Notes under the pieces: model-generated
What the model saw: the letters and a program-made list of their open reading frames with translations, nothing else
Told to the model about the DNA's origin: nothing
Database searches by the model: none
Assembly: GCF_014352935.1 (NCBI RefSeq)
Contig: NZ_CP060694.1
Coordinates: 930,001 to 994,000 of the forward strand
DNA: 64,000 bases
Direction: 5' to 3'
From: Aliarcobacter cryaerophilus
GTDB lineage: Bacteria > Campylobacterota > Campylobacteria > Campylobacterales > Arcobacteraceae
Shown here: one piece after another, positions 59,651 to 63,951 of the stretch
Numbering within the stretch: position 1 is the stretch's first letter
How the letters are laid out: each line of letters opens with the position of its first letter
Made by a program: the position numbers and the translations under genes

Positions 59651-60280
59651 TCAAGCTTTTAAAAACTCATTTTCAATTTTTTTTCTTAATTCACAAACAG
59701 TTTTTAATGCATCTTCTTTATGGTCTGAAAATCCCCAATTAACTAAAATCCCTTCAATCCCAGCTTTTTTTGCTGCTGCAATATCTTTATTTGAATCGCC
59801 AATAAGTTTTGTTTTCTCTTTTTTTGTATTATATTTATCAAGTAAAACATTTACCATATCTGGATTTGGTTTAGGTTTAGCAACATCGTTGTATCCTAAA
59901 ATTGTAGAAAAATATCTATCTATTTCAAGATGAGATAACATTTTTTTAGCAGCATTTGAATTTGCATTTGTTGCTATACAAAATTTAAAATCATTTTTAA
60001 AATCATCAAGAATATCTTTAATTCCATCATAAATTACTAAATCATTCAAACAGTTTTGATTATAATACTCTTCAAAAAGGTTTGTTACTAAAGGTGTAAA
60101 CTCTTTTTGATTATAAAAAAACTCTGCACTATTTATATTTATATCATTTACATGTTCTAAGATAAAATCATGTTCAAATTTTTCAAGCCCTAAATTTTCT
60201 CTTACATAATTTACTGTATTTGCAATTGCATGTCCGCTATTTATTAGCGTTCCATCCATATCAAAAATAATCATTCTCAT
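59651..60280 (-). CDS. HAD-family phosphatase, phosphoglycolate phosphatase-like
   Basis: A 209-residue haloacid-dehalogenase-type hydrolase. The nucleophile motif is FDMDGTLINSG at residues 5-15, motif II is ATNANSNAAKKML, the lysine region is DVAKPKPNPDM, and motif IV is GDSNKDIAAAKKAGIEG. A helical cap (about 18-80) makes it similar to Gph. Substrate could be phosphoglycolate or another small phosphate ester. AAGGGG precedes the ATG. Convergent with the pseudouridine synthase gene; upstream lies the candidate small RNA region. Confidence 0.92.
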   Translation of the reverse strand: MRMIIFDMDGTLINSGHAIANTVNYVRENLGLEKFEHDFILEHVNDININSAEFFYNQKEFTPLVTNLFEEYYNQNCLNDLVIYDGIKDILDDFKNDFKFCIATNANSNAAKKMLSHLEIDRYFSTILGYNDVAKPKPNPDMVNVLLDKYNTKKEKTKLIGDSNKDIAAAKKAGIEGILVNWGFSDHKEDALKTVCELRKKIENEFLKA

Positions 60281-60352
60281 AAAAACCCCTTAAAATGGCT
60301 TTAACATTATATAGTTTTTACATTAGTAAGAAGTTAAAAATATTTTCTTGCT

Positions 60353-60377
60353 AAATAAGACAAATTTTATCTTATTT
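60353..60377. promoter_or_regulatory. Inverted repeat upstream of the candidate sRNA
   Basis: AAATAAGA and TCTTATTT are separated by nine bases. The centre is about 40 bases before the predicted sRNA start, so it covers the -35 region and could be an operator. It could also be chance in AT-rich DNA. Confidence 0.3.
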
Positions 60378-60392
60378 TAATATTTCTTTTAT

Positions 60393-60398
60393 TATAAT
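60393..60398 (+). promoter_or_regulatory. -10 element of the candidate small RNA
   Basis: A consensus TATAAT lies seven bases before the first base of the predicted 5' stem. It is preceded by T-rich phased runs, as is usual for Campylobacterota sigma-70 promoters that lack a clear -35 box. Confidence 0.55.
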
Positions 60399-60404
60399 TC
60401 TTTC

Positions 60405-60529
60405 ATAGGATATTTGTATTGAATCCTCCTACAATTAAATACAATTTTTTTATAGTATCCTATACTTTTTTTGAAATGAATTTATATTATATAAGCTTTG
60501 CAGTTTTTCCCTCTGCAAAGCTTTTTTTT
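60405..60529 (+). ncRNA. Candidate trans-acting small RNA with UCCUCCU loop
   Basis: No ORF fills this stretch. The predicted RNA of about 125 nt starts with an 8-bp stem (ATAGGATA at 60405-60412 with TATCCTAT at 60456-60463). Inside it is a 7-bp stem (TTGTATT with AATACAA) whose 17-nt loop carries UCCUCCU, complementary to Shine-Dalgarno sequences. A 3' intrinsic terminator closes the transcript. A consensus -10 sits just upstream. The layout recalls C/U-rich-loop sRNAs such as RepG of Helicobacter. Function is inferred. Confidence 0.6.
60493..60529 (+). terminator. Strong Rho-independent terminator of the candidate sRNA
   Basis: A perfect 11-bp stem AAGCTTTGCAG / CTGCAAAGCTT with a nine-base loop and eight T residues. 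No protein gene ends before it on this strand, so it most likely ends an untranslated RNA. Confidence 0.88.
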
Positions 60530-60540
60530 ATGCCAAAAAA

Positions 60541-60549
60541 GATACAATC
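60541..60549 (+). promoter_or_regulatory. Probable -10 element of the NosL-like operon
   Basis: GATACAATC, 31 bases before the ATG of the NosL-like gene and just after the sRNA terminator, fits the GATAnAATC pattern seen elsewhere in the window. Confidence 0.45.
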
Positions 60550-60579
60550 ACCCCTAAATTTATTATATCTTGGAGACAT

Positions 60580-61077
60580 ATGAAGAAAATTTTACCAATA
60601 TTAACAGTTGTTTTAATAATCGCAATAATTATAATAATATTTATATCTATGGCAAAAGAGCAAAAAATGGTAGTAATAAAAGAGGGTAATGTTTCTCAAA
60701 CTCCACTTGAAATAATTTTAGGTAAGTATCAAGATAGTGATTGTGGAATGATTATTAATGATTTAACTTTTGCTTCTCAAGTAATTTCACAAGATGGAAA
60801 AACTTGGTTTTTTCATGATCACGGTGGAATGGCAAATTGGTTAAATAATAAAGATTTTAAAAATAGTGTTAAAATTTTTGTTATGACTAAAGATACAAAT
60901 AGATATATAGATGGGAAAACTGCTTTTTATAGTACAAATGAAATAACTCCAATGAGATATGGTTTTGGAGCTTATGAAAATAATCAAGATGGTTTTATAG
61001 ATTTTGAAGAGATGAGTTTAAGAGTTTTAAGAAAACAGACTTTAGCAAATCCGCAACATAAAGAACATAAGCATTAA
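60580..61077 (+). CDS. NosL-like copper-binding protein
   Basis: A 165-residue membrane-anchored periplasmic protein (anchor ILPILTVVLIIAIIIIIFIS). It resembles NosL, the Cu(I) chaperone of nitrous oxide reductase, through DSDCGMIINDLTFASQVI and the following TWFFHDHGGMANWL; Cys-Gly-Met and the His/Met cluster are plausible Cu(I) ligands. The C-terminus ends in HKEHKH. No nosZ is visible, so it may serve another copper enzyme such as cytochrome oxidase. Its TAA overlaps the next ATG by one base. Confidence 0.82.
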   Translation: MKKILPILTVVLIIAIIIIIFISMAKEQKMVVIKEGNVSQTPLEIILGKYQDSDCGMIINDLTFASQVISQDGKTWFFHDHGGMANWLNNKDFKNSVKIFVMTKDTNRYIDGKTAFYSTNEITPMRYGFGAYENNQDGFIDFEEMSLRVLRKQTLANPQHKEHKH

Positions 61078-61787
61078 TGGAAACTTTTAGCCTTATTTCA
61101 ATTATATCAATAGCTCTTCTAGGCTCTTTTGGGCATTGTATTGGAATGTGTGGAGGAATAGTTGTGGCATATTCTAGTACAAAAATAAAAAGTGAATATT
61201 CAAAAACTATTCAAAGTGTTGCTCATCTTTTGTACTCTTTTGGAAGAGTTACAACATATACAATTTTAGGAGCTATTTTTGGTTTTATTGGTGGAGTTGT
61301 AACTTTCTCAAATACTACAAGTGGAGTTTTTTTATTAATAACTGGTTTTTTGATGGTAATAGTTGGATTTTCACTTTTAGGAAAAATAAAATTTTTAACT
61401 ATTTTGGAGCATAGTTGTTCAAAATCACCACTTTATCAAAAAACATTCAAAAATCTTTTAACATCTAACTCTTTGTTTAGTTTCTATCTTTTAGGTATGT
61501 TAAATGGTCTTTTACCTTGTGGCTTCGTATATGCTTTTGCAATTACAGCTGCAAGTACAGGAAGTGCTTTTTGGGGTGCAGTTGTTATGTTTATTTTTGG
61601 ACTTAGCACTATTCCAGCACTATTTTTCTTAGGATTTTTTGTTGGATTTTTTAAACAATCAAATTTAAGAGATATTTTTATAAAAATAGCTTCTATTTTA
61701 GTAATTATTTTTGGAATATATATAGCGTATAAAGGTTATGAATATATTATTGACCCAACAAAATCAATACTAAATTGTCATATATAA
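61077..61787 (+). CDS. SafE/UreH-like transmembrane protein
   Basis: A 236-residue protein with about six membrane segments of the sulfite exporter TauE/SafE-like (UreH/CcoH-associated) group. The first helix holds the metal-type motif GSFGHCIGMCGGIV, and a second LNGLLPCGFVYAFAI completes the family pair. Related proteins move or insert copper during cytochrome oxidase assembly. Coupled to the NosL-like gene, so both probably handle copper at the inner membrane. Confidence 0.85.
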   Translation: METFSLISIISIALLGSFGHCIGMCGGIVVAYSSTKIKSEYSKTIQSVAHLLYSFGRVTTYTILGAIFGFIGGVVTFSNTTSGVFLLITGFLMVIVGFSLLGKIKFLTILEHSCSKSPLYQKTFKNLLTSNSLFSFYLLGMLNGLLPCGFVYAFAITAASTGSAFWGAVVMFIFGLSTIPALFFLGFFVGFFKQSNLRDIFIKIASILVIIFGIYIAYKGYEYIIDPTKSILNCHI

Positions 61788-61821
61788 TAAAATCTAAATT
61801 AATTTTGTAAAGGAGGAAAAA

Positions 61822-61992
61822 ATGAGAAGATATTTTAGCTTTTTTGGTATTTTAATGGCAACATCAAATGCAAAACTTAATATGTTTTATTCAAAATTTG
61901 ATAACTATTTAGAAAAATTACCAAATATAAAAAATAGTTTAATAAAAACTGAACTAAAACCAATAAAACAATATTCAACAAATAATTTATAA
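61822..61992 (+). CDS. Small 56-residue protein of unknown function
   Basis: A short gene with a near-perfect ribosome binding site (AAAGGAGG) before the ATG. The product starts MRRYFSFFGILMATSNAKLN and continues as a Lys/Asn-rich tail (FDNYLEKLPNIKNSLIKTEL). The beginning is a weakly hydrophobic, possibly membrane-associated helix. It lies between the SafE-like gene (34 bp) and the TonB-dependent receptor (15 bp) in the same direction. It has no motif and no function I can name. Confidence 0.6.
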   Translation: MRRYFSFFGILMATSNAKLNMFYSKFDNYLEKLPNIKNSLIKTELKPIKQYSTNNL

Positions 61993-62007
61993 AAAATAAG
62001 GTCAAAA

Positions 62008-63951
62008 ATGAAAAAAATAAATGTAAGCTTAGTTGCAAGCTTTTTAATAGCAACAAATCTTTATTCAAATGAAACTAAATTAGAAACAGTTACAATCTCT
62101 GCAAACCCTATTGAAACAGATGAAAAAAAAGCAACTTTTGCAACTGAAATTTATACAAAAAAAGATATTGAGCAATCAAAATCAAAAGATATATATGATT
62201 TTCTAGCTTCTCAAACTTCAGTAAATGTTATGCCAAATTTTGGCAATAAATTTTCTCAAAGTTTAGATATAAGAGGTTATGGAATAGAGAATGGTTATCA
62301 AAATATTGCAGTGGTTGTAAATGGGAGAAGATTAAATAATATTGATATGGTTCCACAGCTTTTAAGCTCAATTCCACTTGAAAGTATTGAAAAAATAGAG
62401 ATTTTAAAGGGAAGTGGAAGTGTAAAATATGGAGATGGTGCAAATGCTGGGGTTATTAGTATTACAACTGATAAAAAAAACAGCAACTACTTAAAAGCAT
62501 ATTTAGGAAATAATACTTCAAAAGATGGAGCTGCTAGTTTTGGATATGGAAATGAGTATATTATTGCAAATGCTTATGTGGATTACAATTCAACAGATGG
62601 TTCTATAAAAGATAATAGAGGAAATAGTGATGAAAACAATATAAGAAATATGAATTTTAGTGTAGTATTTACACCTATTGAAGAGCTAGAGCTTAGTTTG
62701 TCACGAACTTATTCAAATATGACTACAAACTATGCAAGACCAATATCACTAAAGCAATACAATGAAGATCCAAACCGTACATCAGGATTTAATAAACAAT
62801 ATTTTAGTTCATATGTTACAACAGCTGGTGCAAGATATGATTTTAATCAAAATTTCTTTATAGATGCAACTTTTAGTGATGAAGATAAAATTAGTAAATT
62901 TGGAACAAGCCCTGATACTCAATATGATTATAAATCCTTTGCATCTACATTTAACTATAGAAGTGATATTTTTAAAGGAACAGCAGGAGTTGATGGGTTC
63001 AAAGGAGATAGATTTAATTTTGTTTCATCTTTTGGAACTCCTGAAAATACAACTTCAAAAAATAATCTAGCTATGTTTACATCTCTTGAGATTAATCCAA
63101 TAGATGATTTAACTTTTTCAGCAGGAGCTAGAAAAGAGAAAGTAGAGTATAAATATGAACCACAAAATGGGATGGATTTAAATCAAAAAGATAGATTAAA
63201 TGCATACGACTTTGGGGTAAATTACGCTTTGACTCAAAATCAGTCTATTTTTGCTAATTACAATAGAGGTTTTCAAGCACCAGATATTGATAGATTTTTC
63301 TCAACAGACTGGACGACAATGGCTACAACTTTTAATGGTTTTATTGAACCAGCAAAAGTGAATACTTATACTCTAGGATATAATAATTTTCAAGAAAATA
63401 ATAAGCTTAAAATTGCACTATTTAGAGCAAATTTAAAAAATGAAATTTATTTTTACAATACTGGAAATTGGATGATTCCATCATATAACACAAATATAGA
63501 TAAATCTCATAAGTATGGTCTAGAAGTTTATGATAAATTTTTAATAAACGAAAATTTATATACATCTTTAAACTACTCTTATATTAAAGCAAAAATAGAT
63601 AGAGAAAATGAAGGAAATGGAGTTTATGATGGCAAAGATTTACCAGGAGTTTCAAAACATAATTTAACTCTAGGTTTGGGATATGATTTTTATAAATTCT
63701 CTACATTTTTATCTCATTCTTACAAAAGTAGCGCATATGCTATAAATGATTTTAAAAATGACTTTAAACAAAAACAGGAAGCTTATCACTCTACAGATTT
63801 TAGTGTAAGTTTTAAACATAAAGAGTTGGAAATTTTTGGAAAAATTCAAAATCTATTTGACCAAAAAAATGGACTATGGGTACAAGATGATTCAATTTAT
63901 CCAGTCAATTTTGAAAGAACATTTTTTGCTGGTATGAAAGTTAGTTTCTAA
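62008..63951 (+). CDS. TonB-dependent outer-membrane receptor
   Basis: A 647-residue receptor with a signal peptide (VSLVASFLIATNLYSN). The plug domain is at about 30-155: a TonB-box-like LETVTISANPIE, SQSLDIRGYGIENGYQNIAV, VVNGRRLNNIDM and IEKIEILKGSGSVKYGDGAN. The barrel follows, ending KIQNLFDQKNGLW and FERTFFAGMKVSF with terminal Phe. Substrate is not readable directly. The operon with NosL-like and SafE-like genes suggests copper (as for OprC/NosA), while iron-siderophore or haem remain possible. No Fur-type palindrome is visible upstream. Confidence 0.92.
   Translation: MKKINVSLVASFLIATNLYSNETKLETVTISANPIETDEKKATFATEIYTKKDIEQSKSKDIYDFLASQTSVNVMPNFGNKFSQSLDIRGYGIENGYQNIAVVVNGRRLNNIDMVPQLLSSIPLESIEKIEILKGSGSVKYGDGANAGVISITTDKKNSNYLKAYLGNNTSKDGAASFGYGNEYIIANAYVDYNSTDGSIKDNRGNSDENNIRNMNFSVVFTPIEELELSLSRTYSNMTTNYARPISLKQYNEDPNRTSGFNKQYFSSYVTTAGARYDFNQNFFIDATFSDEDKISKFGTSPDTQYDYKSFASTFNYRSDIFKGTAGVDGFKGDRFNFVSSFGTPENTTSKNNLAMFTSLEINPIDDLTFSAGARKEKVEYKYEPQNGMDLNQKDRLNAYDFGVNYALTQNQSIFANYNRGFQAPDIDRFFSTDWTTMATTFNGFIEPAKVNTYTLGYNNFQENNKLKIALFRANLKNEIYFYNTGNWMIPSYNTNIDKSHKYGLEVYDKFLINENLYTSLNYSYIKAKIDRENEGNGVYDGKDLPGVSKHNLTLGLGYDFYKFSTFLSHSYKSSAYAINDFKNDFKQKQEAYHSTDFSVSFKHKELEIFGKIQNLFDQKNGLWVQDDSIYPVNFERTFFAGMKVSF

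Follow-up and report, generated by a model that had tools for sequence, protein, structure and literature searches.

A conserved RNA gene of the Arcobacteraceae with a predicted anti-Shine-Dalgarno loop and an Fe-S/oxidative-stress operator

We propose that positions 60405-60529 (+) of the window, by which we mean the whole 64-kb stretch of DNA analysed here, encode a trans-acting small RNA of the Arcobacteraceae that would pair with Shine-Dalgarno sequences without Hfq, much as IsrR, FsrA and RyhB act on their targets, and that would take part in an Fe-S/stress circuit. We give this reading a probability of roughly 0.62. The RNA has a strongly conserved CCUCC(UACUA) loop, its own -10 box and its own terminator. 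To our knowledge, Campylobacterota lack Hfq and few of their small RNAs have a known regulon. The preliminary description of this DNA had also assumed that Hfq is missing, and a model search indeed found it in none of the 31 genomes of the genus (the same model was positive in 5 of 14 controls). Here, sequence evidence by itself links a conserved RNA with a stress regulon that has a defined operator and with one ranked target, so that Hfq-free sparing of Fe-S clusters or iron becomes directly testable.

The RNA gene and its conservation

The RNA lies in a gap of 299 bp between the flanking genes (60281-60579), with the following elements:

60353-60377, no strand assigned: 25-bp palindromic operator AAATAAGACAAATTTTATCTTATTT, centred about -40 from the RNA start, the usual place of a -35 box
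60393-60398, +: -10 box TATAAT, retained as TANNAT in most members of the genus
60405-60529, +: small RNA of about 125 nt, with a predicted 5' end
60405-60413, +: 5' arm of the lower stem, partner of 60455-60463 or, alternatively, of the loop
60414-60420, +: 5' arm of the upper stem, partner of 60438-60444, not conserved as such
60421-60437, +: 17-nt loop with UCCUCCU at 60424-60430, the presumed pairing site
60455-60463, +: 3' arm of the lower stem, GTATCCTAT
60493-60529, +: intrinsic terminator with an 11-bp stem (60493-60503/60513-60523), a 9-nt loop and a U tract
60543-60548, +: TACAAT, the presumed -10 box of the downstream operon's own promoter

The hairpin begins at 60405, 7 nt 3' of TATAAT and at the predicted 5' end, which agrees with the earlier remark that the first stem starts where transcription should; the -10 box, the hairpin with UCCUCCU in its 17-nt loop and the terminator were likewise all recovered at 60393-60529. 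One detail in the preliminary description needs adjustment: its eight terminal U residues correspond to a run of eight T at 60522-60529, of which two lie inside the terminator stem. The sole ORF that crosses the 299-bp gap is a mechanical one with a TTG start. A generic promoter and terminator scan called neither element, there being no TTGACA and the 9-nt terminator loop exceeding the limit of 8. A peptide product was considered and rejected: the sole long frame through the RNA is this TTG ORF (60419-60583), and its internal ATG is not conserved.

With a 156-bp query, the RNA locus was the best blastn match in all 25 genomes of the genus first searched. A covariance model trained on 19 distinct sequences of the genus recovered the RNA in 45 of 104 genomes of the family, namely 29 of the 31 from the genus (it missed two fragmented assemblies, one of them 54% complete) and 16 of the 73 others, the latter spread over four further genera. 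The window itself probably comes from Aliarcobacter cryaerophilus, going by a protein encoded next to the RNA that has 98% identity to its counterpart in L031. CCTCC is retained in 43 of the 45 loci, including 29/29 in the genus, and CCTCCTA in 41 of the 45. Conservation of stem and loop in close relatives, on which the preliminary description had staked its RNA gene, is what these counts give. The conserved loop is flanked by arms of variable spacing, and genus g25 has another stem sequence altogether, yet the loop still presents CCUCCUAC; this exchange of the stem around an unchanged loop suggests that the loop is the selected part. In our judgement there is little doubt that a real, conserved RNA gene lies here.

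At the level of the order, 7 of 16 genomes outside the family gave matches (E 6.8e-8 to 0.009). We regard these as chance similarity of AT-rich sequence; the hairpin was absent from the three that were inspected. The RNA was not matched in phage records, and a literature search found no paper on it in Arcobacter. A scan that included Arcobacter sp. L (PMC6429828) left motifs confined to that genus unnamed in the portion of the article available, so that an unnamed earlier sighting of this RNA is possible.

Alternative folds and the downstream operon

The predicted fold of the RNA has a free energy of -26.5 kcal/mol, compared with -12.9 +/- 2.65 for shuffled sequences (n=200; z -5.1), none of which folded as low. 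It consists of a lower stem of eight Watson-Crick pairs and one U-G pair with a 10-nt bulge on the 3' side, an upper stem of seven pairs and the terminator stem of 11 pairs. The two nested perfect stems of the preliminary description thus fold as such in this sequence save for the one U-G pair of the lower stem, but they are not conserved as a pair. In the genus alignment, covariation, which that description had proposed to look for, came out at the terminator, where six of the 11 pairs changed on both sides, but not in the upper stem, where compensatory changes numbered zero and 6 of the 17 rows that carry letters at pair 12-46 break it. The predicted terminator stem is therefore well supported and the predicted upper stem is not supported; the lower stem hardly varies in sequence, which speaks neither for nor against its pairing.

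A competing 5' hairpin joins UAGGAU of the 5' arm to AUCCUCCUA of the loop, with 95.7% of alignment cells paired and two pairs changed on both sides. Partition functions calculated over 27 sequences (25 from the genus and two others) favoured the open-loop fold in 19 of the 25 genus members, with 98% for the window's own RNA, and the masked-loop fold in five. For the nascent, truncated transcript, the minimum was a 5' hairpin covering the loop core wholly or partly in 27/27. The open UCCUCCU loop claimed at first therefore applies to most of the genus, but it is better regarded as one of two folds, since the predicted ground state is mostly masked in 5 of 25 relatives.

The genes around the RNA are as follows:

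59651-60280, -: HAD-family hydrolase (Pfam HAD_2), divergent, found upstream in 39 of 45 loci
60580-61077, +: 165-aa membrane-anchored protein, the next gene in 33 of 45 loci
61077-61787, +: SafE/DsbD_2-type membrane protein (Pfam DsbD_2), downstream and codirectional in all 45 loci
62008-63951, +: TonB-dependent receptor (Pfam)

The last three form an operon (60580-63951, +), which may function in copper or oxidase assembly; its 165-aa protein has no match in Pfam or NCBIfam, and we take it to be nosL-like. The main rival to a separate RNA gene is that the transcript is a cis-acting leader or attenuator of this operon, in which competing folds and the terminator set the read-through, the small RNA being the terminated leader. 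The invariable presence of safE downstream fits this explanation as well, and the linkage holds also in the six loci where the upstream HAD gene was not found; in addition, the operon's first start codon lies 31-111 nt past the terminator, and the two folds are mutually exclusive. However, both folds keep the terminator and differ only in the 5' hairpin, a competing antiterminator was not seen, and the loop is, as we see it, conserved beyond what a leader alone would require. Moreover, TATAAT or TACAAT stands between the terminator and the next ATG in 41 of the 45 loci (the exceptions being the four g25 loci), although this is a count of boxes in an AT-rich region, made on sequence only. Because a -10-like box thus separates the terminator from the next gene in 41/45, we prefer the separate RNA gene and consider the leader unlikely. 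Control of the next operon by pairing of the loop with its Shine-Dalgarno sequences was also rejected, as these are mostly of the UUGGAG type and offer a match of only 4-6 bp (by eye).

Less probable still is a role in sequestering a protein or the ribosome instead of mRNAs, be it as a decoy or as a 6S-type polymerase-binding RNA. The near-invariant sequence of the lower stem recalls protein-bound RNAs, and the Rfam model for 6S RNA (RF00013) is unmatched in the whole of this genome, an absence that says little because the model was positive in just 5 of the 14 genomes used as controls. RF00013 is equally unmatched in the region itself, and a central bubble is absent; 6S identity was rejected because the genome has no RF00013 match. 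No Rfam family was matched in the window at the gathering score, the best permissive hit (E 0.098) lying on the opposite strand and far below the cut-off of its model. The replacement of the stem in g25 also argues against such a role, and we retain the separate, mRNA-pairing RNA as the preferred reading.

An operator shared with an Fe-S/oxidative-stress regulon

Position 60353, with which the preliminary description let the RNA element begin, is in fact the first base of the 25-bp palindrome, and both the operator and the Fe-S/oxidative-stress regulon that it marks escaped that description and are new here. The site scores 30.3 bits and is the only one of its kind in the window; a control of 300 kb of Markov sequence contained zero sites of 10 bits or more. 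Operators of at least 15 bits accompany the RNA in 29/29 loci of the genus, a circular figure, as the matrix had been trained on such sites, and in 9 of the 16 loci from other genera, whereas in 6 of these 16 the operator is missing (below 8 bits). The palindrome begins 52-53 bp before the RNA in 27 of the 29 loci of the genus; in the remaining two (G010 and G015) the distance is 63 bp, longer by about one helical turn.

In this genome, a pattern search found eight operator-like sites and the reversed control two; across the genus, the search gave 1-5 sites per genome in 31/31 genomes and the control 0-1. Four of the eight sites in this genome have no sensible promoter or gene start behind them. 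The genes directly behind sites encode SufB, NifS/IscS, NifU, Mrp, a hemerythrin-PAS protein, thiol peroxidase, superoxide reductase, cytochrome c peroxidase and a CRP-type regulator (SufB, NifU, ccp, hemerythrin, redoxin and desulfoferrodoxin were family-checked, and NifS, Mrp and the CRP type were assigned by eye). Among 57 distinct sites (69 loci), 22 stand before sufB, 10 before nifS, eight before nifU and six before hemerythrin, while tpx, SOR and ccp contribute a single site each. From these sequences, we judge it very probable that the RNA belongs to an Fe-S/oxidative-stress regulon. As a separate observation, a regulon with operator AAATAGGATAAANTTTATCCTATTT can be outlined in the Arcobacteraceae, comprising suf, nifU, nifS, mrp, hemerythrin-PAS, tpx, SOR and ccp, with sites at L153:9042-9192, L112:1501-1525, L116:1501-1525 and L151:1388-1412.

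Before sufB and hemerythrin, sites lie 15-30 bp from the start codon, which suggests that the regulator is a repressor. This genome encodes three Rrf2 proteins, two of them with three-cysteine motifs, and none of the three genes has the operator beside it. We favor an Rrf2-type regulator because of the content of the regulon and the 12-1-12 geometry of the operator, which we take to be that of NsrR. Fur may be the regulator instead, as the operator core GATAANNNTTATC presumably resembles a Fur box; however, the sites precede suf, nifU and nifS genes and not iron-uptake genes, and Rrf2 is preferred. That the locus is nothing but a DNA-level feature, with regulatory sites and a terminator and no functional RNA, would fit the 5' arm ATAGGATA (60405-60412), which repeats part of the operator half-site AATAGGATA (palindrome 60353-60377), but is highly improbable given the conserved loop with variably spaced arms, the covarying terminator, the conserved -10 box and the covariance-model matches across five genera.

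Direct repeats resembling TTTAACA-N5-TTTAACA, with a pitch of 11 bp, occur between the operator and the -10 box in L219, L224 and other g20/g35 loci, some 25-50 bp before the RNA start, and within the genus in L019 and L023. One 11-bp turn has been lost in most of the genus, which suggests a second input of the response-regulator type.

Candidate targets and mode of action

This genome (G000) contains five exact copies of TAGGAGGAT, the 9-nt complement of the loop core; one of them is the RNA's own complement, and only two are followed by ATG after 2-9 nt. The idea that the loop blocks the ribosome binding sites of many mRNAs is thus unlikely, and a genome-wide Shine-Dalgarno blocker was ruled out by the scarcity of sites. 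The AGGAGG-type sites said to precede several genes nearby were overstated as well: AGGAGG occurs five times in 64 kb on both strands, against 9.4 expected, and one of these copies is again the RNA's own complement. The two genes are ccp, which encodes a di-haem cytochrome c peroxidase, and one that looks by eye like a secreted glycoside hydrolase 3. Their predicted duplexes reach -16.3 and -17.9 kcal/mol, respectively; among 50 window genes taken as a comparison, the best reached -15.0 and the median was -7.0 kcal/mol, so that ccp beats all 50. Over 31 genomes, TAGGAGGAT precedes ATG at 75 sites against 45 for the reversed-pattern control, a modest excess, and GGAGGAT is simply a strong Shine-Dalgarno sequence, which counts against specific targeting.

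The operator starts 119-182 bp upstream of the ccp ATG in 24 of 26 species (13.9-29.4 bits), each time as the best match over the whole 4-kb ccp locus; it is weaker in G042 (7.2 bits) and absent in G004. Among the matches listed (60 of 75 sites), the full 9-mer lies in the ccp Shine-Dalgarno sequence of at least nine species, before a DASS-type anion transporter in at least 10 and before an ABC ATPase in at least six; G046 adds a further ccp case. In G018, G019, G021, G022 and G041 the ccp match is lost (duplex -7.8 to -9.9 kcal/mol) and the RNA loop is kept. The anion transporter and the ABC ATPase are not obviously iron proteins, and no operator was found at the transporter loci. We judge the chances of ccp being a target in this species, as predicted from its sequence, to be about even; it is a good hypothesis rather than a demonstrated target, and the case for predicted targets other than ccp is weak.

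How might such an RNA work? A repressor, probably an Fe-S-sensing protein of the Rrf2 type, would sit on the palindrome and be released when clusters run short or suffer damage, whereupon the RNA would be made alongside the SUF/NifU and peroxide-defence genes. In the absence of Hfq, the loop would then form 9-11 bp with UAGGAGGAU-type Shine-Dalgarno sequences and block ribosome binding. As the RNA shares the switch for Fe-S repair and peroxide defence, it would probably lower the translation of chosen proteins under stress, and action in trans as an anti-Shine-Dalgarno regulator is, in our judgement of the sequences, somewhat favored. The clearest candidate in this species, ccp, carries the same operator, so that the RNA would limit or delay the accumulation of a protein that the same signal induces, forming an incoherent feed-forward loop that would spare iron. 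The second fold, with the 5' arm over the loop, may delay or tune the activity of the RNA. It would be tempting to combine these elements into an Hfq-free, bistable anti-Shine-Dalgarno RNA that stands with its own target ccp under one Fe-S/oxidative-stress regulator, its nascent loop masked until the 3' arm displaces the mask; this would be a RyhB-like sparing circuit, separately invented in Campylobacterota and keyed to Fe-S status instead of Fur, but we offer it as a tentative extension that we rather doubt.

By analogy of mechanism, IsrR of Staphylococcus and FsrA of Bacillus appear to be the nearest systems: their single-stranded C-rich regions pair with Shine-Dalgarno sequences, and IsrR works without Hfq, according to the sections available of PMC9410917. 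They share with the RNA described here an AT-rich genome, membership in a stress regulon and a C-rich anti-Shine-Dalgarno region, which here is predicted; like IsrR, as far as the same sections portray it, our RNA keeps its stems in primary sequence with little covariation. IsrR is, however, controlled by Fur and has been found by experiment to act on iron enzymes (PMC9410917, same sections), while the palindrome here belongs to an Fe-S/oxidative-stress regulon, the targets are predicted and the RNA matches no Rfam family. As with RyhB, Fe-S repair would be co-induced while the expression of iron proteins is cut, although RyhB is Fur-repressed and depends on Hfq (in the same partial source, PMC9410917), which is absent here. 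Of the iron-protein mRNAs whose Shine-Dalgarno sequences an iron-sparing RNA of this class would pair with, ccp is the candidate here, in part of the genus.

The preliminary description had pointed to RepG of Helicobacter, also a small RNA with a C/U-rich loop from a Campylobacterota lineage without Hfq, and this holds as an analogy only. RepG acts on G-repeats through its terminator loop, whereas the conserved CCUCC here lies in the 5' hairpin, and its authors found no homologues outside Helicobacter (both from the part of PMC8295292 at hand). RepG stands beside an hp1043-type regulator and our RNA between a HAD hydrolase and the safE operon; with another loop and other neighbours, identity with RepG was rejected. 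The CcsR or "cuckoo" RNAs of Alphaproteobacteria are likewise stress-related and carry a CCUCCUCCC-type anti-Shine-Dalgarno loop. They belong to a different phylum, and there are four of them, arranged in tandem and transcribed together with a DUF1127 protein, as stated in the available part of PMC10253847.

The terminator loop UUUUUCCCU (60504-60512) is C-rich and conserved in most of the genus, with UUCCC in the rest; outside the genus its C-richness is mostly not kept, CCC being lost in most such loci. It could serve as a second pairing site.
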